64,000 nt of DNA, taken from contig NZ_RBIL01000001.1 in assembly GCF_003633755.1 (NCBI RefSeq), positions 2,465,426 through 2,529,425 of the forward strand. Direction: 5' to 3'. Shown piece after piece: positions 27,790 through 39,905 of the stretch (positions are counted from its first letter, which is position 1; every line of letters starts with the position of its first letter). A program made the position numbers and the translations under genes. The notes under the pieces are model-generated. The model was not told the DNA's origin, did no database searches, and saw only the letters and a program-made list of their open reading frames with translations. The DNA comes from Solirubrobacter pauli. Its GTDB lineage: Bacteria > Actinomycetota > Thermoleophilia > Solirubrobacterales > Solirubrobacteraceae.

Positions 27790-29397
27790 ATGAGCGCATA
27801 TCGATTGGCCGTTTTCGGCTGTACTGCGTTGCTCGCGGTTGGTGCCGCAGCGTGCGGTGACAGCTCGGATGACGACGGCGGCAACACCACCAGCGGGGGC
27901 AGCACCCCCGAGGCTTCGGCGGGCGTTGCCGACACGGTGATCCTCGGCTCGACCGACAAGGTCGTGGCCCTGGACCCGGTCGGTGCGTACGACCTCGGCT
28001 CGCAGCAGCTGATCGGCAACATCTACCAGAACCTGCTCTCGGTTCCGGCGGGCGGCAACAAGCCCGAGCCCGATGCAGCCGAGTCCTGCGAGTTCACGGA
28101 CCCGAAGACGTACGTCTGCAAGCTCAAGCCGGACCTGAAGTTCTCGAGTGGCGACCCGCTCACCTCGGAGGACGTCAAGTTCTCCCTGGACCGCATGGTC
28201 AAGATCGCGGACCCGACCGGTCCGTTCACGCTGCTCGGCTCGCTCGACAGCGTCGAGGCGACCGATCCGATGACCGTGACGATGAAGCTCAAGAAGGCCG
28301 ACGCGACCTTCCCCTTCATCCTCACGCACAACGTCGCGGCGATCGTCCCGAACGAGGTCTACTCGGCTGACGCGAAGCAGCCGGACGACAAGATCGTCGG
28401 CTCGGGCCCGTACAAGCTGGACAAGTACACCCCGAACCAGCAGGCCGTGTTCTCCATCAACCCGGAGTACAACGGCCCGAACAAGGGCAAGACCCCGAAC
28501 TTCATCGTCCAGTACTTCGAGCAGGCCTCGGCCCTCAAGCTGGCGATCGAGCAGGGCGAGGTCGACATCGCGTACCGCAGCCTCTCCCCGACCGACCTCG
28601 AGGCGCTCCGCAACGGCGGCAACGGCGTCAAGGTCGTCGACGGCGCCGGCACCGAGATCCGCTACATCACGTTCAACGTGAAGAAGAAGCCGGTCGACGA
28701 CGTGGCCGTCCGCAAGGCGATCGCCCAGGTCATCGACCGCGAGGCGATCACCACGAACGTCTACAAGGGCACGGCGACCCCGCTGTACTCGACCGTCCCG
28801 TCCGCCTTCCCGGGCGCCAAGCCGGCGTTCCAGGAGGCCTTCGGCGATCCGGACCCGGCGAAGGCGAAGGCCATCCTCGAGGAGGCCGGCGTCTCGACCC
28901 CGGTCACGCTCGACGGCTGGTACACGCCGACCCACTACGGCCCGGTCGAGGCTGACCTGTGGAACGAGCTCAAGCGTCAGCTCGAGGGCTCGGGCCTCTT
29001 CAAGGTCTCCCTGGACTCCACTGAGTGGGACCAGTACAAGTCGGAGGCCTTCGAGAAGGGCACGTACTACTTCTACGGCCTCGGCTGGTTCCCGGACTTC
29101 CCGGACGCCGACAACTACCTGTCGCCGTTCATGCGTGACGGTGGCTTCTTCCAGAACGGCTACTCCAACAAGGAGGTCAACGACCTCCTCGACGAGGAGC
29201 TCGCCACGGACGACGCTGCCAAGCGCGAAGAGGCGTTCGGCAAGATCCAGGACATCGAGGCCAAGGACGTGCCGCTGATCCCGCTGTGGGAGGGCAAGCA
29301 GGTCGCCGCCGTGCGCGAGGGTGTGGAGGGCGTCGAGACGACGTTCGACCCCGCCTTCCAGTTCCGCTTCTGGGTCGTCTCCAAGAAGGCCGACTAG
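27790..29397 (+). CDS. Oligopeptide ABC transporter substrate-binding lipoprotein
   Basis: A 535-residue family 5 solute-binding protein. The lipoprotein signal peptide ends at the lipobox AVGAAAC22, followed by an acidic/Gly-Ser linker. Family motifs include FSSGDPLTSEDVKFSLDRM and the C-terminal DVPLIPLWEGKQVAAV. A GGAGGGG ribosome site precedes the ATG. It captures peptides outside the membrane and delivers them to the permeases encoded directly downstream. The gene heads a five-gene operon. Given the proteases and hydroxyproline genes around it, proline-rich peptides are plausible ligands, but nothing in the pocket can be read to prove it. Confidence 0.95.
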   Translation: MSAYRLAVFGCTALLAVGAAACGDSSDDDGGNTTSGGSTPEASAGVADTVILGSTDKVVALDPVGAYDLGSQQLIGNIYQNLLSVPAGGNKPEPDAAESCEFTDPKTYVCKLKPDLKFSSGDPLTSEDVKFSLDRMVKIADPTGPFTLLGSLDSVEATDPMTVTMKLKKADATFPFILTHNVAAIVPNEVYSADAKQPDDKIVGSGPYKLDKYTPNQQAVFSINPEYNGPNKGKTPNFIVQYFEQASALKLAIEQGEVDIAYRSLSPTDLEALRNGGNGVKVVDGAGTEIRYITFNVKKKPVDDVAVRKAIAQVIDREAITTNVYKGTATPLYSTVPSAFPGAKPAFQEAFGDPDPAKAKAILEEAGVSTPVTLDGWYTPTHYGPVEADLWNELKRQLEGSGLFKVSLDSTEWDQYKSEAFEKGTYYFYGLGWFPDFPDADNYLSPFMRDGGFFQNGYSNKEVNDLLDEELATDDAAKREEAFGKIQDIEAKDVPLIPLWEGKQVAAVREGVEGVETTFDPAFQFRFWVVSKKAD

Positions 29398-29401
29398 CAA
29401 C

Positions 29402-30427
29402 ATGAGCCGTGCCGGATCGCTACGGGGCTACGTCCTCGTCCGGATCGCGCTGATGATCCCCATGGTCTGGGTGCTTCTGACCGTGGTGTTCCTGATGATG
29501 CGCGTGGCCCCGGGCAGTCCGGTGTCGGCCACCCTGGGCGGCAAGCTCTCCCCTGCGGAGATCGCCGAGCGCGAAGCGGCGCTCGGGTTTGACCGCCCGT
29601 TGATCGTGCAGTACCTCGACTACCTGTGGGACGCCGTCCGCTTCCAGTTCGGCACCACGGTCACCGACGGGCAGACGATCGGCTCGCTGATCGTCGAGAA
29701 CGGCGGTGCGACGTTGACGTTGACGGTCGCGGCCCTCCTCGTCGCGATCGTCTTCGGCCTCCCGCTCGGCCTGATCGCCGGGCGCTACCGGGAGACGATC
29801 CCGGACGCCTTCATCCGCGTGTTCGCCATCCTCGGCTACGCGGCGCCGCCGTTCTTCGTCGGCCTGCTCGCGCAGCTGCTGTTCGCGAAGAACCTGGACT
29901 GGCTCCCGGCCTCCAAGATGGCCTCGCCGATCACGCAGGCGACGGCGGAGGTGCATACCCACATCCTCATCATCGACCTGGCGATAGACGGCAACTGGGA
30001 CGGGGTGTGGGACGTGATCCTGCACTTGATACTCCCGGCCACGACGCTCGGCCTGCTGGTCATGGGCGTCTTCATCCGCCTCGTGCGCGTCAACGTCGGG
30101 CAGGCGCTTGGCGGCGACTACGTCGAGGCGGCCCGCGCCCGCGGCGTGGGTGAGCGCCGCGTGGTCTCGCGCCACGCGTTCCGCAACGCGCTCGTCCCGG
30201 TCGTCACCGTCATGGGCCTGCAGGCGGCGCTGCTGCTCGGCGGCGCGGTGCTGACCGAGCAGACCTTCAGCTGGCCCGGGCTCGGCACCCGATTGCTCCA
30301 GTACCTGAACAGCCGCGACTACATCGGCGTCCAGGGCCTGATCACGTTCTTCGCGCTGATCGTCGTGTTCATCTCGCTGATCATCGACATCGTCAACGCG
30401 CTCATCGACCCGCGCGTGAGGTACTAG
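29402..30427 (+). CDS. Oligopeptide ABC transporter permease, OppB/DppB type
   Basis: A 341-residue membrane protein with six helices. The family start (GYVLVRIALMIPMVWVLLTVVFLMM without quoting further) is a long first helix; the EAA loop for ATPase contact is DYVEAARARGVGERRV. It includes a longer than usual loop with VHTHILIIDLAIDGNWDG between helices. The ATG follows the binding-protein gene by four bases. It forms the channel with the OppC-type permease. Confidence 0.94.
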   Translation: MSRAGSLRGYVLVRIALMIPMVWVLLTVVFLMMRVAPGSPVSATLGGKLSPAEIAEREAALGFDRPLIVQYLDYLWDAVRFQFGTTVTDGQTIGSLIVENGGATLTLTVAALLVAIVFGLPLGLIAGRYRETIPDAFIRVFAILGYAAPPFFVGLLAQLLFAKNLDWLPASKMASPITQATAEVHTHILIIDLAIDGNWDGVWDVILHLILPATTLGLLVMGVFIRLVRVNVGQALGGDYVEAARARGVGERRVVSRHAFRNALVPVVTVMGLQAALLLGGAVLTEQTFSWPGLGTRLLQYLNSRDYIGVQGLITFFALIVVFISLIIDIVNALIDPRVRY

Positions 30428-30430
30428 GCG

Positions 30431-31462
30431 ATGACCGCGACCACGACCGTCACCGGCACGCCGGACAAGCCCCCGATCGCCGAGCCGCCCAAGCGGCGCG
30501 GCGGCATCCTCAGCAAGATCTGGGCGCCGTTCAAGCAGTCCCACGGCATCCAGCGCTTCATGCTGGTCACGGGCACCGTCGTGTCCCTGCTGTTCATCTT
30601 CATGGCGATCTTCGCGCCGCTGATCGCCCCCTTCAGCTTCGACACCTACCAGGACAACGGCGTTCGCTTCCCGACGCAGGGCGAGCCGAGCGACGTCAAC
30701 CCGTGGGGCACCACGGTGCAGGGCTTCGACGTGATGTCGCGCACCATCTGGGGCGCGCGCACGGCGCTCGAGGTCGTCCTCCTGGCCGTGATCTTCTCCC
30801 TCGCCATCGGCGTGCCGCTCGGGCTCATCTCGGGCTATGTCGGCGGCTGGGTGGACCGCATCCTCGTCCTGATCATGGACGCGCTCTTCGCGTTCCCGTA
30901 CCTGCTGCTCGCGATCGTCGCGGCGTTCCTGCTGACGAACACGATCGACAGCGGCATCGTCGTGACCGCGATCGCCATCACCGTGGTCTACGTGCCGCAG
31001 TACTTCAGAGTGGTACGAGCATCCACGCTCTCGGCAAGAGAGGCGACCTACATCGAGGCGGCGCGCGCGATGGGCGCGCGGCCGCGGACGATCATCAGCA
31101 AGTACCTGTTCGGCAACGTCATCCAGAGCGTGCCGGTGATCGCGACGCTGAACGCGGCGGACGCGATCCTGACGCTCGCGGGCCTCGGGTTCCTGGGTCT
31201 GGGAATCCAGCCTGACGAGGCGGCCGAGTGGGGGTACGACCTGCAGCGTGCGATCGCCGATGCCGGTGCCGGCATCTGGTGGACGGCGCTGTTCCCTGGG
31301 CTCGGCATCGTGCTCGCCGTGACCGCCCTGACGTTGGTTGGAGAAGGTTTGAACGACGTGCTCAACCCGACGCTGCGCCGCCGCCGCGTCAAGAAGCCGA
31401 TCATCTCGTCGAGCGCCGTGGGCCCCGCCTCCGCGCCCGAGGTCGAGTCGGAGGTGGGCTGA
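30431..31462 (+). CDS. Oligopeptide ABC transporter permease, OppC/DppC type
   Basis: A 343-residue permease with a cytoplasmic N-terminus, a first membrane helix at about residue 45, then the transport domain with five more helices. Its contact loop is TYIEAARAMGARPRTI. The extracytoplasmic segment after helix 1 contains HPWGT-like NPWGTTVQGFDVMSR, characteristic of OppC. It begins three bases after the OppB-type gene. The C-terminal tail is Arg/Lys-rich and then Ser/Ala-rich. Confidence 0.94.
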   Translation: MTATTTVTGTPDKPPIAEPPKRRGGILSKIWAPFKQSHGIQRFMLVTGTVVSLLFIFMAIFAPLIAPFSFDTYQDNGVRFPTQGEPSDVNPWGTTVQGFDVMSRTIWGARTALEVVLLAVIFSLAIGVPLGLISGYVGGWVDRILVLIMDALFAFPYLLLAIVAAFLLTNTIDSGIVVTAIAITVVYVPQYFRVVRASTLSAREATYIEAARAMGARPRTIISKYLFGNVIQSVPVIATLNAADAILTLAGLGFLGLGIQPDEAAEWGYDLQRAIADAGAGIWWTALFPGLGIVLAVTALTLVGEGLNDVLNPTLRRRRVKKPIISSSAVGPASAPEVESEVG

Positions 31463-31463
31463 G

Positions 31464-32486
31464 ATGGCCGATCCCGTCCTGTCCCTGCGTGACCTGCGCA
31501 TCTGGTACGGGGCCGAGCGCGGCGCCGTGCGCGCCGTCGACGGCGTGTCGCTGGACCTGATGCCCGGTGAGACGGTCGGCCTCGTGGGCGAGTCGGGCTG
31601 TGGCAAGTCCACGCTCGGCCGCGGCGTGATCGGCCTGCTCCCGGCGGGCGCGGGCCACGCCGGCGAGGTCTCCTACAAGGGCCGCAACATCCTGGACCTC
31701 AAGCCCAAGCAGCTGCGCTCGATGCGCGGCCCGGACCTGGGGATGATCTTCCAGGAGCCGATGACGCGGCTGAACCCGCTGATGCGGATCTCCGACCACT
31801 TCGAAGAGGTCCTGCGCATCCACGAGCCCAAGCTGGGCAAGAAGGAGACGCGCAACCGCGCGATGGAGGCGCTGCGCGGCATGGGCATCCCGCCCACGCG
31901 CTACAAGCAGTATCCGCACGAGTTCTCGGGCGGCATGCGCCAGCGGATCATGATCGCCCTCGCGCTCGTGCTGCGTCCGGCGGTGGTCGTGGCCGATGAG
32001 CCGACGACCGCGCTGGACGTGCTCGTCGAGGCGCAGATCCTGCGCATCCTCGCCGACCTGCGGCGCAACTTCGACACGGCGCTGCTGCTGATCACCCACA
32101 ACCTGGGGATCGTCGCCGAGGCGTGCGACCGCGTGGCCGTGATGTACGCGGGCCGCGTCGTCGAGCAGGGCCCGGCGTACGACATCACGACCAACCCGTC
32201 GCACCCGTACTCGCGCGAGCTGCTGCGCTCGACGATCTCGCTGTCGACGACGTCGCTGCACTCGATCCCGGGCGCGCCGCCGGACCTCGTGTCCCCGCCG
32301 CCGGCCTGCCGCTTCCACCCGCGCTGCCCGGACGCGATGCAGGTGTGCGCCCAGCAGTGGCCGCCGACCGAGGCGACGAGCCCGGGCCGGCGCTCGGAGT
32401 GCTGGCTGCACGCCAAGGACCGGATCCCCGCGGGGCAGGACGCTCCGCTCGAGCGCGAGGCGCTGGCCGCCGCGGAGGAAGCATGA
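31464..32486 (+). CDS. Oligopeptide ABC transporter ATPase, OppD type
   Basis: A 340-residue ATPase with Walker [11 protein letters not shown]-loop IFQEPMTRLNP, signature FSGGMRQR, Walker B VVVADEPTTALD, switch LLITHNLGIV and the C-terminal CRFHPRCPDAM peptide-transporter domain. It starts one base after the OppC-type stop and overlaps the OppF-type gene by four bases, giving one translation unit. Confidence 0.95.
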   Translation: MADPVLSLRDLRIWYGAERGAVRAVDGVSLDLMPGETVGLVGESGCGKSTLGRGVIGLLPAGAGHAGEVSYKGRNILDLKPKQLRSMRGPDLGMIFQEPMTRLNPLMRISDHFEEVLRIHEPKLGKKETRNRAMEALRGMGIPPTRYKQYPHEFSGGMRQRIMIALALVLRPAVVVADEPTTALDVLVEAQILRILADLRRNFDTALLLITHNLGIVAEACDRVAVMYAGRVVEQGPAYDITTNPSHPYSRELLRSTISLSTTSLHSIPGAPPDLVSPPPACRFHPRCPDAMQVCAQQWPPTEATSPGRRSECWLHAKDRIPAGQDAPLEREALAAAEEA

Positions 32487-33763
32487 GCGCTCCCGTCGCC
32501 ACCAAGAACCTGATCGAGGTCCGTGACCTCGAGGTGCACTTCGGCATCGCCTCGTCGTTCAAGTCGCGGCTGACCGGCCGCGGCGGCGCGACGGTGAAGG
32601 CCGTCGACGGCGTCTCGTTCGACCTGCAGGAGGGCGAGGTCCTCGGCCTGGTCGGCGAGTCCGGCTCCGGCAAGACCACGCTCGGCCGCGCGCTGCTCGG
32701 CCTCGTCCGGCCGACCGCCGGCAGCGTCAAGCTGCGCGGCGAGGAGCTCGTCGGCCTCCCGGAGCGCGAGCTGCGCCCCAAGCGCCGGCACCTGCAGATG
32801 GTCTTCCAGGACCCGCACGCGTCGCTGAACCCCGGCATGCGGCTGCAGACCGCGCTTGCGCATCCGCTGCAGATCCACAAGCTCACCAAGGGCGACGCGG
32901 AGACCGAGGCCCGTGTCCGCGAGACGCTGGAGCTCGTCGGCCTCTCGCCGACCGAGCGCTTCGCGGAGAGCTTCCCGAGCGACCTGTCGGGCGGCCAGAA
33001 GCAGCGCGCCGCCATCGCGCGGGCGATCATCACCAGCCCCGACCTCGTCGTCGCCGACGAGCCGGTCTCGATGCTCGACATGTCGGTCCGGGCGAAGATC
33101 CTCGACCTGATGATCGACCTCAAGCAGCGGATGGGCCTGACGTACGTGTACGTCACCCACGACCTCGCCTCGGCGAAGTTCTTCTGCGACCGCGTGGCGA
33201 TCATGTACCTCGGCCGGATCGTCGAGATCGGGACCGTCGACGAGATCTTCGACGACCCGAAGCACCCGTACACGCAGGCGCTGATCCGCGCGATCCCGGA
33301 GCCCAACCCGGACAAGGCGCTCCCGCGCGACCTGCCGCGCGGCGAGATCCCCGACGCGGCGCGTCCGCCACTCGGCTGCTCGTTCCACCCGCGCTGCCCG
33401 AAGGCGTTCGAGATCTGCGGCTGGGAGTCGCGCGACCTGCGGGCGATCCTCGAGGAGCGCTGGGTGCAGGGCGGCGAGGACCTCTACAACGCCGAGCGCC
33501 CGCTCGTCGGCGACCTCGAGAAGCTCAACGTCGGCGACCACGACGCGTTCGTCCCCGCCGGCTCGGGCAAGGACCCGGGCACGCTGCTCGCGACGCTCGA
33601 GAAGATCCGCGACGAAGAGCCCGACGAGCCGCTGTGGAAGGGCGTCAAGGCGATGAGCGCGGAGGCGCACGGCGTGCGCGTCACGTTCGAGCCGGGCATC
33701 GACCCGCCGCTCTACGAGACGACCGGCTCCCGCGCCGCCTGCCTGCTCTACAAGCCCGATTAG
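32483..33763 (+). CDS. Oligopeptide ABC transporter ATPase, OppF type, extended C-terminus
   Basis: A 426-residue ATPase, about 100 longer than usual OppF. Core motifs: Walker A GESGSGKTT, Q-loop FQDPHASLNPG, signature LSGGQKQR, Walker B VVADEPVSMLD, switch YVTHDLASA and [15 protein letters not shown]. After that domain ~125 further residues continue with normal codon use (RDLRAILEERWVQGGEDLY, VKAMSAEAHGVRVTFEPG), a region I do not recognise. It completes the importer operon. The chosen ATG overlaps the OppD stop; frames open further upstream are inside oppD. Confidence 0.93.
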   Translation: MSAPVATKNLIEVRDLEVHFGIASSFKSRLTGRGGATVKAVDGVSFDLQEGEVLGLVGESGSGKTTLGRALLGLVRPTAGSVKLRGEELVGLPERELRPKRRHLQMVFQDPHASLNPGMRLQTALAHPLQIHKLTKGDAETEARVRETLELVGLSPTERFAESFPSDLSGGQKQRAAIARAIITSPDLVVADEPVSMLDMSVRAKILDLMIDLKQRMGLTYVYVTHDLASAKFFCDRVAIMYLGRIVEIGTVDEIFDDPKHPYTQALIRAIPEPNPDKALPRDLPRGEIPDAARPPLGCSFHPRCPKAFEICGWESRDLRAILEERWVQGGEDLYNAERPLVGDLEKLNVGDHDAFVPAGSGKDPGTLLATLEKIRDEEPDEPLWKGVKAMSAEAHGVRVTFEPGIDPPLYETTGSRAACLLYKPD

Positions 33764-33865: not shown

Positions 33866-36508
33866 GTGAGAGGTACTCTCGCCGCCGTCGTGGCGGCCTT
33901 CGCGTTGGTCGCCCCCGCGGCCGCGCACGCGGCGGTGCCTCCGCCGATCGATCCGCAGCAGGTGCAGGACCAGCAGGACATGACGTTCCAGGACTACAAG
34001 CCGGTCCCGGGCGTGGACTGGGCGACCAACGGCGCGGTCCCGAGCGTCCGCAAGGTCACGATCGCGCTCGTCGCGTTCGACTTCGAGGACCAGCCGTTCG
34101 TCATCACCCAGAAGAAGCAGAGCGATCCGTTCGGCAACCCGCAGATCGATCCGGTCAAGCGCGAGGACGTGCCGAAGTTCTACGCCGACTTCTACAACAC
34201 GCCGAGCCCGCTCAACCAGGGGCACACGATCAACGGCTACTGGATGGAGCAGTCCGGTGGCCGCGTCGGCGTCACCGACGTCAAGACCTACGGCCCGTAC
34301 CGGATGCCGAAGCGGCTCTACCAGTACGGGTTGAGCGACATCGGCCAGTCCGGCAAGCCGACCGGCAACGGCTGCCCGGCCGCGACGACCGTGGTCGGCG
34401 CGCACACGGCGACGCAGACGATCGCGGTCGAGGACTCGGCGTTCTTCTACGTCGGTGACGTGATCCAGTTCGGCGCCGTCACGCCGACCGGCAACAAGAC
34501 CGTCACCGCGATCCCGGACGCCACGCACATCACCGTCAGCGTGCCGATCACGGTCGCCGCCGGCACCGCCGTGCAGGACTGCAACTTCTCCAGCAACCAG
34601 TTCAACCAGGACGCGACCGCGCTCTGGAACGCGGACACCGGCTGCGCCGCGACCAACTGCGGTCAGACCGTCCACCTGTACATGTACGCCGGCTACGACG
34701 AGACGTCGGTGTGGCAGGAGTTCGGCGAGATCATGTTCCAGAACAAGGAGGACGTCCCGCACGAGGTCTGGGGCAACCCGAACCCGAAGAAGCCCAACTG
34801 GGTCGCCTCCCGCTACGTCGACTGGACGTCGTGGTTCGCCGGTGAGCAGCAGTGGGGCGAGTCCTCGATCCGCCAGGGCGAGAGCTCGGGCACGATCACG
34901 CACGAGATCAGCCACAACATCTTCTCGGTCGGCGACAACAACAACAACCCGTACGTGACCCCGTACCGCCGTGTCGGCTCGGGCACCTGGGACATGATGG
35001 ACCGCGGGTCCTTCAACGGTCCCGGCGGTCCGCACAACCGCTGGCAGGTGCCGGCCCTGTACGGCGGCTCGATGGGGGCCGAGCACACGCTGCGCTCGAA
35101 GGTGGGCATGGGCTTCGTGCCCAACTCGTCGGTGCTGCGGCTCAACCGCAACGGGCTCGCGCAGACCGGCCTCGCGGTCGCGGACGTGATCGCGCGCGCG
35201 GCCAACGCCGAGCCGCTGCCGACCGGCGTCCGCGCCGGCGTGCAGGTCTTCCTCGACGGCCCCGCGCCGGTCGACAAGACGCCCGCGTGCAACATCAACG
35301 CCGACCCGCTGTGCGACGGCGGCACCTGGACGAACTACTCGCTGGAGACCGTCCAGCGCGTCGGCTACGGATCGTTCGGGGCCGACCAGGGTGTGCTGAT
35401 CGCCAAGAACAAGGCGTGGGCGGCCGGCGCGACGCGCGGCACCGAGGGCAGCTCCTGCGGCTACAACTGCTTCACCTGGGTGCAGGACGCGCACCCGGAG
35501 GACATGAACACCGTCGACTACTACAAGCCGAACGGCACACCGGTGATGCGCACCGTCGCCGACTACCGCCAGCTCAACGACGCGCTGTTCCACGCCGGCA
35601 CGAACTCGGGCTCCTCGTACGAGTTCACCGACGCGGCCAACGACCTGAAGTTCTACGTGGTCGACAAGTACAAGGACGCCCGCGGGCTCGACCACTACAT
35701 CCTCGGCATCCAGAACCCGAAGGGCGCCGGCCCGCAGACGCGCGGCGTGCAGGTCGCGACCGCGTCCGGTGACGCGCTCAGCACGTGCACGTTCAAGGTG
35801 ACGAACACGGGCGCGGCGGCGACGACCGACCCCGCGCTGCACCCGCAGGACGAGACCGCCTCGCTCGACAGCGACATCTACCGCCTGTCGGCCTCCGCCT
35901 CCGGCACGGGCTGGAAGGCGGAGCTGCGCAACGCGCTCGCCACCGCGAAGTTCGGCGAGAGCGTCGACGTCCCCGTCTACATCACCAAGGGCACGGGCGC
36001 GAGCAACACCGTCACGCTGACCGCGACCTCGGTCAGCGATCCGAGCAAGACCGCCACGGCGACGTGCGCGGCGACGCAGACCGACGGCACCGTCGGCGGC
36101 ACCGTGCCGGCGACGCTGTCGCTCACGCTCGGCGCGCCGGCGGACTTCGGCGCCTTCCAGCCCGGCGTGGCGCGGGACTACTTCGCCTCCACCCCGGCGA
36201 AGGTGACCTCGACCGCGGGCGAGGCGCTGCTGAGCGTGGCCGACGCCTCCTCGGTCTCCACCGGCTACCTGGTCAACGGCGCGCACGCGCTCAAGCAGCC
36301 GCTGCAGAGCCGCGCGCGCAACACCGCCAACACGGGCACCGCGTACAACAATGTGGGTTCCGGGCTCAACCTGCTGACCTGGAGCGAACCGGTCGCCAAC
36401 GACGAGGTGTCGCTGGACTTCAAGCAGACGATCGGCCTCAACGACCCGCTGCGCACGGGTGCCTACGCCAAGACGCTCACGTTCACGCTCTCGACGACCA
36501 ACCCGTAG
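33866..36508 (+). CDS. Secreted M6-type (immune inhibitor A-like) metalloprotease
   Basis: An 880-residue secreted protein. The GTG start follows AAGGAGG by five bases; residues 1-22 form a signal peptide (AAHAA cleavage region). The zinc-binding motif H346EISH350 with downstream Asp357 (HNIFSVGD) and the preceding YAGYDETSVWQEFG fit the M6/immune-inhibitor-A family, which degrades extracellular proteins. An insertion of about 70 residues with Cys pairs lies before the catalytic part. The last ~137 residues (from ~744, GGTVPATLSLTLGAPADFG to TLTFTLSTTNP) form a domain shared with the S15 peptidase at 37656. There is no LPXTG or membrane anchor. It follows the peptide importer and probably feeds it. 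Confidence 0.9.
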   Translation: MRGTLAAVVAAFALVAPAAAHAAVPPPIDPQQVQDQQDMTFQDYKPVPGVDWATNGAVPSVRKVTIALVAFDFEDQPFVITQKKQSDPFGNPQIDPVKREDVPKFYADFYNTPSPLNQGHTINGYWMEQSGGRVGVTDVKTYGPYRMPKRLYQYGLSDIGQSGKPTGNGCPAATTVVGAHTATQTIAVEDSAFFYVGDVIQFGAVTPTGNKTVTAIPDATHITVSVPITVAAGTAVQDCNFSSNQFNQDATALWNADTGCAATNCGQTVHLYMYAGYDETSVWQEFGEIMFQNKEDVPHEVWGNPNPKKPNWVASRYVDWTSWFAGEQQWGESSIRQGESSGTITHEISHNIFSVGDNNNNPYVTPYRRVGSGTWDMMDRGSFNGPGGPHNRWQVPALYGGSMGAEHTLRSKVGMGFVPNSSVLRLNRNGLAQTGLAVADVIARAANAEPLPTGVRAGVQVFLDGPAPVDKTPACNINADPLCDGGTWTNYSLETVQRVGYGSFGADQGVLIAKNKAWAAGATRGTEGSSCGYNCFTWVQDAHPEDMNTVDYYKPNGTPVMRTVADYRQLNDALFHAGTNSGSSYEFTDAANDLKFYVVDKYKDARGLDHYILGIQNPKGAGPQTRGVQVATASGDALSTCTFKVTNTGAAATTDPALHPQDETASLDSDIYRLSASASGTGWKAELRNALATAKFGESVDVPVYITKGTGASNTVTLTATSVSDPSKTATATCAATQTDGTVGGTVPATLSLTLGAPADFGAFQPGVARDYFASTPAKVTSTAGEALLSVADASSVSTGYLVNGAHALKQPLQSRARNTANTGTAYNNVGSGLNLLTWSEPVANDEVSLDFKQTIGLNDPLRTGAYAKTLTFTLSTTNP
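36095..36508 (+). other. Shared C-terminal beta domain (copy in M6 protease)
   Basis: About 137 residues beginning GGTVPATLSLTLGAP and ending DPLRTGAYAKTLTFTLSTT-NP at the stop. A closely similar domain ends the S15 peptidase. Unknown function; C-terminal location in two secreted enzymes suggests sorting or surface attachment. Confidence 0.75.
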
Positions 36509-36905
36509 CGGGTCGGTCGTCGTGCTCGCCGCCGCGGCCCTGTTGACGGGGTGCGGCGGCGGGGAGCCGGACGGGCTGGTGCTGCAGGTCGTGGCGCCGG
36601 ACGCCGTCCTGCGGGAACTCGGGGAGGCCTGCTCGGGCGGCGACCCGTTCTCGTACGCGCACGCGACCGCGCCGTACTCGCTCGCCGACGCGTCCGGGAA
36701 GGTCGTCGTGCGCGCCGAGCTGCCCGAGGGCGACGCGAAGGCCGCCTTCAACCACGACCCGGGAGTGGACCGCGTGCCGACGTTCTGCGCGTTCACCGTG
36801 CACGCCGACGTCCCGGCGTCCGGGCGCTACACGCTGCGGCTGGGCGAGAGCCCGCCACGGGAGTTCGGCTTCAAGGACGGGAAGGCGATGGTGGTTCTGA
36901 ATTGA
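36459..36905 (+). CDS. Putative lipoprotein of unknown function
   Basis: About 148 residues from the ATG at 36459, overlapping the protease gene by 50 bases. The N-terminus is Arg/Ser-rich, then a hydrophobic segment ending in the lipobox ALLTGC, so the mature protein is anchored outside the membrane. The Arg-rich start may be an artefact of the overlap; a GTG at 36522 lies in frame but leaves no positive residues before the hydrophobic core. The mature part (~115 residues) contains two cysteines (EACSGGDPF, TFCAFTV) and looks beta-rich. I do not recognise the family. It overlaps the next gene by four bases (TTGA), which encodes a thioredoxin-like lipoprotein, so it might be its substrate or partner. 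Confidence 0.7.
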   Translation: MPTPRRSRSRSRRPTRSGSVVVLAAAALLTGCGGGEPDGLVLQVVAPDAVLRELGEACSGGDPFSYAHATAPYSLADASGKVVVRAELPEGDAKAAFNHDPGVDRVPTFCAFTVHADVPASGRYTLRLGESPPREFGFKDGKAMVVLN

Positions 36906-37444
36906 GGCGGCTGGCGATCCTGGCCGCGACGTTGGCGGTGGCGGGGTGCGGCGGCGCGTCGTACGACGGAGGCCGTGACCGCCTGCCCGGGCCGGTGCCC
37001 GACGACGTCACCTTCGCCCCGGTGGAGAGCACGGCGGTCGCGCCGCCGATCGCGATGAAGCTGCTCGACGGGACGTCCTTGGACGTGGCCACGCTGTGGC
37101 GGGACCGCCCGGTGGTCGTCTTCTTCATGGCTTCCTGGTGCAGCCGCTGCGGGACCCAGCAGGAGGTCTTCGCGCCGATCATCGAGCGCTACGGCGACGC
37201 GGTCGGCTTCGTCGGCGTCGCCGGGCGGGACAAGGCCGAGCCGCTGAAGCGGTGGGTCGCCGACCATCAGGTCGGCTACCCCGTCGGCACCGATCCGGAC
37301 CTGGCGATCTGGCGGCGCTACGCGGTTCGCACGCCGCCGGCGGTCGCGGTCGTCGCGCCCGGCGGCAAGCTGATGCGTGGCTGGCCGGGCGGCGCCACCA
37401 GCGAGGAGCTCGAGTCCGCGCTCGAAGCGGTCGTCAAGGACTAG
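36902..37444 (+). CDS. Thioredoxin-like (TlpA/ResA type) lipoprotein
   Basis: A 180-residue protein starting at TTG that overlaps the previous stop. Residues 1-16 are a lipoprotein signal peptide ending LAVAGC. The thioredoxin-fold domain has the active site MASWCSRCGTQQE and a cis-Pro region TPPAVAVVAPGG. It would act on disulfides of exported proteins; the neighbouring M6 protease contains several Cys pairs, which makes it a possible substrate. The 3' end meets the small convergent gene with stops overlapping. Confidence 0.87.
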   Translation: MRRLAILAATLAVAGCGGASYDGGRDRLPGPVPDDVTFAPVESTAVAPPIAMKLLDGTSLDVATLWRDRPVVVFFMASWCSRCGTQQEVFAPIIERYGDAVGFVGVAGRDKAEPLKRWVADHQVGYPVGTDPDLAIWRRYAVRTPPAVAVVAPGGKLMRGWPGGATSEELESALEAVVKD

Positions 37445-37602
37445 CGGTCGCGGGCGCGGCGGCTGCGGATCAGCGCGCCCGCGGCGATCGCCAGCGTGAT
37501 CACGGCGGGGATCGCGCCCCACGGCATCGGGATCCAGAAGCTCAGCAGCGCGCAGATGAGCGCGATGACGACGAGGATCGTGTCGCGGCGATCGGCGCTC
37601 AT
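37441..37602 (-). CDS. Small two-helix membrane protein (53 residues)
   Basis: An open frame of 53 codons, ATG to TAG, with clear two-helix hairpin topology: charged start MSADRRD, helix TILVVIALICALLSFWI, turn PMPWG, helix AIPAVITLAIAAGALI, and basic end RSRRARDR. The hydrophobic/charged pattern is not what a shadow frame gives. A -10-like TACCGT lies eight bases before the ATG and there is no Shine-Dalgarno sequence, the same arrangement as at other genes here. A 14-bp hairpin separates it from the S15 peptidase gene upstream. Function unknown; its stop overlaps that of the thioredoxin-like gene on the other strand. Confidence 0.7.
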   Translation of the reverse strand: MSADRRDTILVVIALICALLSFWIPMPWGAIPAVITLAIAAGALIRSRRARDR

Positions 37603-37610
37603 GGCCGACA

Positions 37611-37616
37611 ACGGTA
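37611..37616 (-). promoter_or_regulatory. -10 element of a leaderless transcript (small membrane protein)
   Basis: TACCGT on the minus strand, eight bases before the ATG of the 53-residue gene. It abuts the large hairpin that ends the S15 peptidase transcript. Confidence 0.4.
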
Positions 37617-37648
37617 CCCGCGGGGACGCGTGCGGCGTCCCCGCGGGT
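37616..37648 (-). terminator. 14-bp perfect hairpin after the S15 peptidase gene
   Basis: Arms ACCCGCGGGGACGC and GCGTCCCCGCGGGT with a five-base loop, seven bases after the peptidase stop codon. This is the strongest stem in the window. Likely a rho-independent-type terminator without a U-tract. Confidence 0.75.
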
Positions 37649-37655
37649 GGCCTGC

Positions 37656-39905
37656 TTACGGCGTTGTCGTGCTGAGCGTGAAGGTCAGCGTCTTGCTGTA
37701 GCTGCCGGTCCGGAGCGGATCGGTCTTCTTCACGAGCTGCTTGAAGTTGACGTCGACCTTCTCGTTCGACGTCGGGCCGTTCCAGGTGGACTTGCTCAAC
37801 GCGACCTGGAGCGGCTCGGGGAGCGTGAACGCGCCGTTGGCCAGGTGGCCCGGGTCGCTCACGGTCAGGGTCGCGTCACCGGCGGTGGAGATCACCGTCG
37901 CGTCGGTCTTGGCCGTGTACTCCTGATCGACGCCCGGGGTGAAGGCGCCGAACGAGGCCGGGGCGCCGAGCGCGAGGCTCAGCGTGGCCGGGACGGTGCC
38001 GCCGACCGGCGCCTCGACGGCCTCGCCGAACAGGCCCGCCTGGACGGCGGCGCTGTAGCCGCCGACGATCGGCAGCTGCACCTTCGACCGCTTCGTGTCG
38101 ATGGTGACGTCGGTCTGGGTCATGCCGTTGACCGAGCCGTAGCCGCTGTGGTTGGCGCCGATCACGATGCCGACGCGGTGGCCGGCGGCGAACGTGAAGT
38201 CCTCCGGCAGCATCGGCCAGCTGAACGTGTAGGAGCCGCCGATCGTGACGGGCTCGGCGATCCGCAGCGAGTTGCGGTTCGAGGAGTCCATCATGCCCTT
38301 GGTCACGCGCCACTGGGTGACGGTCTGCTGCGGCTTGGTCGTCTCCTTGAAGCAGCCCGTGTCGTCCGGCACCGAGCCGCCCCAGCAGTTGACGACCGCG
38401 TCGGCCGGGGTCGAGACGCCGTCGCCGGAGCGGGTGGTCTGCGTGCTCGGGCCGTAGTCGACGATGAACGCCGTCAGGTTCGACTGCGTCTTGCTCAGCG
38501 ACGCCTGCAGGTCGATGATCGCCGTGCCCGACAGGCGTAGCGGCTTCTTCAGCGGCGGCGACAGGAACATGCGCTTCTGGCCCTGCTGGGTCGCGTTGCT
38601 CGTGAGCGACAGGTAGTTGTTCTCGCTCAGGTTGTTGTCGCGGAACGTCGTGGTGGCGTCGGCGCCGCCCGAGAACGCGCCGAGCGTCTGGCCGGCCGCG
38701 CCGTTGCTCTGCAGGAACACGTCGGTCATCTTCGTGCCCGGGATCGGCCAGTCCGTGTGGCTCTCCCACACGTCCTTGCTGACCTCGATGTCGACCGCCG
38801 GCTCGCTCGTGATCCCGTTCTGGATGCCGTAGAGCTCGTGGTCGAACCAGCGGTGGATCGTGTCCACCCAGACGGCGCGACGGCCGTCGAACGGGTCGAC
38901 GTGGCCCTGACGCAGGATCCACAGCTTGCGCGTGACGCCGCGCTCCTTGAGCCCGTACCACCACTTGGAGAAGTGGTCGGCGCGGACGTTCTCGTCCTGG
39001 ACGCCGTGCGTGATGAACACGCTCGCCTTGACCTTGTCGAGGTCCTTCAGGTAGTCGCGGACCGCCCAGAAGTCGCTGTAGTCGCCGGTCGCGTCGCCGT
39101 CGTTGCGGTCCAGCTCGTCGCGGACCGGCTTGCAGTAGTCGCGCCGGTCCGGGTTCGTGACCGTGCTGGCGAGGCTCTGCAGGTAGTGGTTGCCGCGCTG
39201 CACGACGCCGTTGGTGCGCGTGTAGTCGTAGTACGAGGCGATGGCGGAGATCGGGACGATCGTGGTCAGGCCCTCGACGCCGGACGCCGCGACCGCGTTG
39301 GCCAGCGTGCCGTCGTAGGACTTGCCGATCAGGCCGGTCTTGCCGTTGTGCCAGTCGGCTTTCACCTCGTTGCCGGCCTTGTCGACGCCCTTCGTCCGGC
39401 CGTTGAGCCAGTCGATCACGACCTTGGCGCTCAGGTTGTCGGACTCGTCGTGGACGGTCGGGCAGCCGGTCGAGTTGTTGGTCCCGATCATGTCCATGAG
39501 GATCACGGCGTAGCCGCGCGGGACGAAGTAGTTGTCGTAGAACAGCGGCCACAGGTCGAGCAGGCCGTCGCCGTCGTAGTCGCGCTTGAGCTGCGACTCG
39601 TTGCCGCGCCCGAGCGTCGAGTAGTACGGGCTCGGGTCCATGATCACCGGCGCCTTGAGGCCGGTGGACGTGGCCTTCGGCCGCTTGATGTCGATCGCGA
39701 TGATGTCCTTGACGCCGTTCTTGTCGGAGTCGTAGGGCGATTCGATGAACACGCGCTCGCGGATCGCGTCCGCGTAGCCGAACACGGGCGACGTCTTGCC
39801 GCCCTCGAGTACCGGCGCGGTCTGCGCCATGGCCGACGGTGCACCGACCAGGGTGGCGGCGACCACCGCCGCGGCGAGGCCCACTCGCCGCATATTGCCT
39901 CTCAT
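37656..39905 (-). CDS. Secreted X-Pro dipeptidyl-peptidase (S15 family)
   Basis: A 749-residue exported serine peptidase. The ATG follows AAGGAGGG by eight bases and a signal peptide ends near APSAMAQ. The alpha/beta-hydrolase triad is visible: Ser196 in GKSYDGT (S15 GxSYxG), Asp304 in HGVQDENV and His335 in RQGHVDP. S15 enzymes release X-Pro dipeptides from the N-terminus of proline-rich peptides; related cocaine-esterase/acyl hydrolases share the fold but the order and length here suit X-Pro peptidase. The last ~118 residues repeat the domain found at the end of the M6 protease. Being divergent from the FAD/[2Fe-2S] gene and near the importer, it probably prepares Pro/Hyp peptides for uptake. 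Confidence 0.9.
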   Translation of the reverse strand: MRGNMRRVGLAAAVVAATLVGAPSAMAQTAPVLEGGKTSPVFGYADAIRERVFIESPYDSDKNGVKDIIAIDIKRPKATSTGLKAPVIMDPSPYYSTLGRGNESQLKRDYDGDGLLDLWPLFYDNYFVPRGYAVILMDMIGTNNSTGCPTVHDESDNLSAKVVIDWLNGRTKGVDKAGNEVKADWHNGKTGLIGKSYDGTLANAVAASGVEGLTTIVPISAIASYYDYTRTNGVVQRGNHYLQSLASTVTNPDRRDYCKPVRDELDRNDGDATGDYSDFWAVRDYLKDLDKVKASVFITHGVQDENVRADHFSKWWYGLKERGVTRKLWILRQGHVDPFDGRRAVWVDTIHRWFDHELYGIQNGITSEPAVDIEVSKDVWESHTDWPIPGTKMTDVFLQSNGAAGQTLGAFSGGADATTTFRDNNLSENNYLSLTSNATQQGQKRMFLSPPLKKPLRLSGTAIIDLQASLSKTQSNLTAFIVDYGPSTQTTRSGDGVSTPADAVVNCWGGSVPDDTGCFKETTKPQQTVTQWRVTKGMMDSSNRNSLRIAEPVTIGGSYTFSWPMLPEDFTFAAGHRVGIVIGANHSGYGSVNGMTQTDVTIDTKRSKVQLPIVGGYSAAVQAGLFGEAVEAPVGGTVPATLSLALGAPASFGAFTPGVDQEYTAKTDATVISTAGDATLTVSDPGHLANGAFTLPEPLQVALSKSTWNGPTSNEKVDVNFKQLVKKTDPLRTGSYSKTLTFTLSTTTP
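37659..38013 (-). other. Shared C-terminal beta domain (copy in S15 peptidase)
   Basis: Residues ~631-749 of the peptidase: GGTVPATLSLALGAP at the start and DPLRTGSYSKTLTFTLSTT-TP at the end, matching the M6 protease tail almost residue for residue at both ends. The middle is shorter than in the M6 copy. Confidence 0.75.

Follow-up and report, generated by a model that had tools for sequence, protein, structure and literature searches.

A C-terminal domain on exported enzymes of Solirubrobacter with likeness to WxL and pilin domains

Chaperone-usher pilin domains lack one strand, which is supplied by the chaperone or by the next subunit. The T9SS C-terminal domains, PEP-CTERM and LPXTG each place one C-terminal module on many unrelated exported proteins within one lineage. 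WxL domains (PF13731), which measure 160-190 residues, are C-terminal beta-sandwiches of exported proteins, and their published distal motif reads YXXX(L/I/V)TWXLXXXP (PMC5817068). They bind peptidoglycan of the cell wall non-covalently and have WxLIP (DUF916/DUF3324, PF06030) as their partner. According to prediction, a hairpin strand of WxLIP occupies a gap in the WxL sandwich (PMC10599100).

The two window peptidases and their neighbourhood

The 64-kb stretch of the Solirubrobacter pauli genome analysed here (the window) encodes two peptidases, P0001 and P0002, that carry a common C-terminal domain (CTD). The features of this neighbourhood are as follows.

27790..33760, + strand, peptide importer of the ABC type, made up of SBP_bac_5, two permeases and two oligo_HPY ATPases, immediately upstream of P0001
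33866..36508, + strand, P0001, M6-like secreted metalloprotease with CTD, 880 aa (TIGR03296 at 78.6 bits, E 6.9e-22, under the model's cut-off)
36095..36505, + strand, C-terminal CTD copy of P0001, residues 744-880, 137 aa, long class; stop codon at 36506-36508
36509-37655, interval between both CTD copies, with two small genes for probable lipoproteins, one of them thioredoxin-like
37656..39905, - strand, P0002, S15 / PepX X-Pro dipeptidyl-peptidase with CTD, 749 aa (PF02129 and PF08530 above cut-off)
37659..38003, - strand, C-terminal CTD copy of P0002, 115 aa, short class; stop codon at 37656-37658

A preliminary description of this DNA had reported that both peptidases end in the same domain exactly at the stop, and the two translations bear this out, each domain reaching its stop codon with a tail of the form ...TLTFTLSTTxP. 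The extent given there was correct for the copy of P0001 (137 aa), while the copy of P0002 is shorter at 115 aa and starts at 38003 rather than 38013. The catalytic parts had been described as unrelated; P0002 contains S15 plus PepX_C (Pfam), and no Pfam or NCBIfam family is common to the two proteins. A tblastn search with the 115 aa domain detected no third copy within the 64-kb window. The importer is complete and of the Opp/Dpp type, and together with the CTD-bearing M6-like protease it forms a possible peptide-scavenging locus. Surface-tethered peptidases beside a peptide importer would fit digestion on the surface that feeds local uptake.

Both window copies are kept at a syntenic locus of S. 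phytolaccae (L113), with CTD identities of 87% and 81%, dN/dS of about 0.4 and 0.7, and host identities of 90% and 94%. Judged by this comparison, the CTD is under constraint, yet no more than its hosts.

Copies, hosts and taxonomic range

Searching the own genome (7.1 Mb) by tblastn with the 115 aa copy of P0002 gave 135 segments without an internal stop (best 5e-71), which were mapped to open frames from the fetched regions, one region being left out as a weak match (E 0.002). These segments corresponded to 107 open frames bearing the CTD, so that the sharing first noted for two peptidases was real and its scale badly understated. The domain was single and reached the stop codon in all 107 frames, with no internal copies among them, and the complete copies at other Solirubrobacter loci were also C-terminal (98 of 98). 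All 107 domains ended in proline with a tyrosine at -14, compared with 65 proline-ended frames among 519 controls. Among 6,274 other frames from these loci, none had the terminal motif, and a backward reading of the exact C-terminal DNA pattern gave 0 matches. Given the 107 C-terminal frames and these two null counts, the shared domain is not due to chance.

Two length classes were observed, one of about 115 aa and one of about 120-144 aa with a mid-domain insert, and a single copy (C1:42162-44132) was without its middle part. Constrained residues were distributed along the whole domain (Y29, L46, G57, Q89, G100, Y102, P115). We found no significant match to Pfam, NCBIfam or PDB sequences, and no description of the domain in the open-access literature. 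The CTD is a real and large family, uncatalogued in the libraries searched. The two outcomes named beforehand as refuting the earlier proposal, membership in a characterised family and equally frequent internal copies, did not occur. Two contigs of the own genome end inside similar CTD genes (C2:2576602-2577219 and C3:2-622; L106 and L107), which suggests repeated CTD paralogues as points where the assembly breaks.

With the T9SS C-terminal domains, PEP-CTERM and LPXTG the CTD shares its occurrence as one C-terminal module across many unrelated exported proteins in a lineage. It could be read as a signal by which a dedicated machine for export or attachment, an enzyme or transporter, recognises its substrates through the invariant tail, comparable to T9SS C-terminal domains; the CTD would then be cut or covalently linked. 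The strict C-terminal placement of one domain on about 100 unrelated exported proteins, the near-invariant terminal motif and the invariant last proline all suit this explanation. We nonetheless consider it unlikely, as no such machine was identified, the tail has neither LPXTG nor a membrane helix with a basic tail, and each genome had only a single detected sortase gene, except for one genome with two. Solirubrobacter is taken as Gram-positive, hence without an outer membrane to cross. The constraint also spans the whole CTD and not the tail alone, and in contrast to the three named systems the CTD is a folded 115-aa domain with no dedicated processing enzyme identified. Of the earlier proposal of a sorting, secretion or surface-retention signal, retention by binding is likelier for a folded domain than a processed sorting signal.

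We also considered sortase anchoring of the CTD proteins and rejected it, since all 107 tails were of the TLTFTLSTTxP type, without LPXTG, helix or basic tail; the absence of LPXTG and of a membrane helix had already been noted for the two window copies. The sole sortase gene detected in the own genome lies about 12 kb before the window (C1:2453453-2453818).

The host parts (104, Pfam) included peptidases of the M14, S15, M1, M64, S8 and M12B-like types, together with GH10/43/67, ThuA/GSDH giants, amidases, GDPD, alkaline phosphatase, metallophosphatases and esterases. Many of these hosts contained CBM6 or PKD modules, and most were large multidomain enzymes with variable linkers preceding the CTD. 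A signal-peptide-like start, called with our own heuristic, was observed in 93 of 104 hosts and in 73 of 404 control frames. From their sequences, the hosts appear to be mostly exported hydrolases. They fell into 46 unrelated sequence clusters, 33 of them with a single member, in agreement with the earlier view that the C-terminal domain is re-used on different exported enzymes. In 28 of 70 cases the nearest CTD belonged to a host of the same cluster, against a mean of 8 after shuffling, which indicates that CTDs spread by duplication with their host as well as by exchange between hosts.

Domain-only copies were rare, with one observed in the own genome (L090:7329-7823, + strand; C2:842319-842822) and two elsewhere (L196, L197). 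The first of these, a 164-aa protein made up only of a signal peptide and a divergent CTD, adjoins a CTD-bearing peptidase and is a possible counterpart of a 'small WxL'.

That many hosts act on polymers and bear CBM6 or PKD would be in keeping with the CTD being a substrate- or carbohydrate-binding accessory module. Such modules are normally internal, N-terminal and C-terminal, and also occur in tandem, whereas all 107 CTDs were single and terminal. The peptidases, phosphatases, amidases and GDPD among the hosts have no common substrate, and we regard a binding accessory module as very improbable.

Among named genomes, a scan found 389 relatives, and the best 79 loci were all from Solirubrobacter. 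The window genome groups with these, since a protein of a S. taibaiensis locus has a 100% identical counterpart in G152, a genome of the same genus as the window. The exact DNA pattern for TFTLSTTxP plus stop was matched 73, 77, 77, 107, 53, 118 and 105 times in seven genomes of the genus, so that roughly 50 to 120 secreted proteins per Solirubrobacter genome end with the CTD. Among 151 genomes of the order, nine contained a match, three of them Solirubrobacter and six others from the same family. The six non-genus genomes had 1-3 copies each, C-terminal as well, including L196 and L197, short proteins with little besides the CTD. A wider profile search across 396 genomes of the phylum, Actinomycetota, found the CTD confined to the same family. 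With only 1-3 copies outside the genus, and these within the same family, the CTD was amplified within one genus, and its suggested lineage specificity is upheld across the phylum as sampled.

In other genera of the family (L193, L194) the sole CTD was located on HtaA-like proteins (PF04213, above cut-off in L194 and below it in L193), a hint that an HtaA-like protein may have been the original host. No CTD relatives were detected in viral contigs and no P0002 relatives in phages, and spread by viruses or phages was rejected on these grounds.

Predicted fold and likeness to WxL domains

The AlphaFold model of the P0002 copy, built from a 59-sequence alignment, was all-beta with a pLDDT of 95.4 and a pTM of 0.83, and DSSP assigned six strands arranged as a sandwich. 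Foldseek returned nothing below 0.001 against the PDB, with CfaB and Csu pilins as the top rows. VIA-align, run on the candidates from Foldseek, placed Csu first (7zl4_B, Z 8.4, rmsd 3.1 A over 108 of 115 residues), followed by the PapG pilin domain (3me0_B, Z 7.8) and then CFA/I, Fim and Pap; a Z near 8 is within the range that VIA-align deems common for such arrangements and may reflect a common arrangement. Pilin domains of the chaperone-usher type (Csu, PapG, Fim, CFA/I) were thus the best structural matches over nearly the whole CTD, and as with the PapG pilin domain the CTD is C-terminal, behind a functional domain. It differs from these pilins in having no sequence family match to them, in its monoderm lineage and in its enzyme hosts. 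According to the model, the CTD is a folded domain of pilin-like or WxL-like architecture, not a short signal, and by analogy with pilin domains its sandwich may be incomplete.

The pilin-like predicted fold also bears on whether the CTD is an assembly domain, by which the enzymes would be interlinked through strand exchange, as in pilins and TasA, into an extracellular enzyme-loaded matrix. The PapG-like order, with the functional part first and the pilin-like domain last, points the same way, and donor-strand exchange does occur in TasA, a Gram-positive biofilm scaffold (PMC9674648). Yet the hosts are mostly large multidomain enzymes with variable linkers ahead of the CTD, each protein has one CTD and domain-only copies are rare, all of which makes an assembly domain distinctly improbable in our view.

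Like WxL domains, the CTD is C-terminal only, lies on exported proteins, occurs on both domain-only and large multidomain hosts and is predicted to be a beta-sandwich. It also ends at the stop with a comparable motif, Y-x3-[LIV]-T-[W/F]-x-L-x(3-4)-P. The WxL distal motif, with F for W and one extra residue before P, was present in 78 of 107 CTDs, and this relaxed form was found in 0 of 6,274 other frames. The tryptophan of the distal motif was found in 0 of 107 CTDs, so that none has the strict form, which was also absent from all 21 PF13731 members in the order. The first Trp-x-Leu motif is likewise without Trp, the aligned CTD position reading GDATLSV.

In addition to having no Trp in either motif, the CTD is undetected by PF13731, which matched none of 11 diverse copies and nothing in the own genome; in the order, 12 genomes had matches above the cut-off of this profile, and Solirubrobacter was not among them. 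Further differences from WxL domains are its shorter length (115-140 aa compared with 160-190) and its roughly 100 copies per genome, carried on enzymes. When the CTD profile was compared with a profile of 21 WxL proteins from the order, the score was 24.0, against at most 14.4 for 60 column shuffles, with the likeness confined to the C-terminal strand in the last ~29 columns. Profile similarity over the full length was rejected, as the terminal strand alone aligns. Judged by the sequence features that define WxL domains, the CTD does not belong among them, and it is likened to one in its putative working mode; homology over the full length is possible.

True WxL and WxLIP gene pairs were observed in Actinomycetota of this order (L230-L237, L241). 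The WxL proteins of these pairs all end in SGP at the stop, many with F or L at the position of the distal Trp, and one genome (G119) contained 8 WxL matches.

A WxLIP-like neighbour and the proposed mode of surface retention

A PF06030 search located a WxLIP-like gene beside one CTD gene of the own genome and in related genomes.

C1, L038:1578-2459, - strand, WxLIP-like membrane protein, 293 aa, starting 4 bp after a CTD-bearing metallophosphoesterase
L224, L225 and L156:4350-5198, WxLIP-like homologues after the CTD-bearing metallophosphoesterase

The own copy scored 18.2 bits, under the PF06030 cut-off of 27.3, while the homologue L224 scored above it at 30.3 bits. A signal peptide and a hydrophobic segment at the C-terminus are visible in the 293-aa sequence, together with a WxLIP-like region; the fold predicted from single sequence input was poor (pLDDT 54). 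A profile built from three WxLIP-like proteins (A4) detected 6 genes in the two genera that have the CTD, each immediately downstream of a CTD gene. Elsewhere in the order it detected 12 more, and 9 of these lie immediately downstream of a WxL gene. Since WxLIP-like genes follow CTD genes here and mostly WxL genes elsewhere, the CTD occupies the WxL slot, a further likeness seen in the WxLIP-like gene directly downstream of one CTD member.

The pair of metallophosphoesterase and WxLIP-like gene was kept in 5 Solirubrobacter genomes and in G138, from another genus. Within the own genome the WxLIP-like gene adjoins 1 of the 107 CTD genes and none of the other copies. Both members of the pair are missing from G117 and G154, apparently genomes of a single species with 77 CTD tails apiece, and a single general receptor role for the WxLIP-like protein was rejected for this reason. 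Unlike the WxL/WxLIP arrangement, then, the WxLIP-like gene accompanies one CTD client and is missing in one species; its absence from two CTD-rich genomes implies that the other CTDs would have to bind elsewhere. The WxLIP-like protein is probably a dedicated partner of that client, the metallophosphoesterase, and the remaining CTDs would most simply bind the wall itself.

By analogy with these systems, we find it reasonably probable that the CTD acts as a WxL-like or pilin-like non-covalent surface-retention domain for exported enzymes, amplified in Solirubrobacter. Under this retention model the CTD would fold independently as a beta-sandwich and, after Sec export of the host, would fold last as an incomplete sandwich, with the final strand YxKTLTFTLSTTxP-COOH bordering an open groove. 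The domain would then be retained through binding to peptidoglycan or to another envelope partner, and this partner may donate a strand, in keeping with what is predicted for WxL/WxLIP and established for pilin domains. The more specific proposal, in which about a hundred secreted proteins per genome would dock through a CTD completed by a strand from a wall or membrane partner, a Gram-positive form of donor-strand complementation for enzyme display, we advance tentatively, as a possibility on the doubtful side.

The CTD represents a domain family without annotation, carried by about a hundred exported proteins per Solirubrobacter genome. The comparison suggests a principle shared with WxL and pilin domains, namely a sandwich at the C-terminus, perhaps incomplete, whose amplification allows degradative enzymes to be displayed. 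With one 115-aa fusion it becomes possible to test how monoderm bacteria keep hold of enzymes in the absence of sortase motifs, and the CTD provides a one-step marker for the set of enzymes that a little-studied soil lineage exports and probably holds on its surface.
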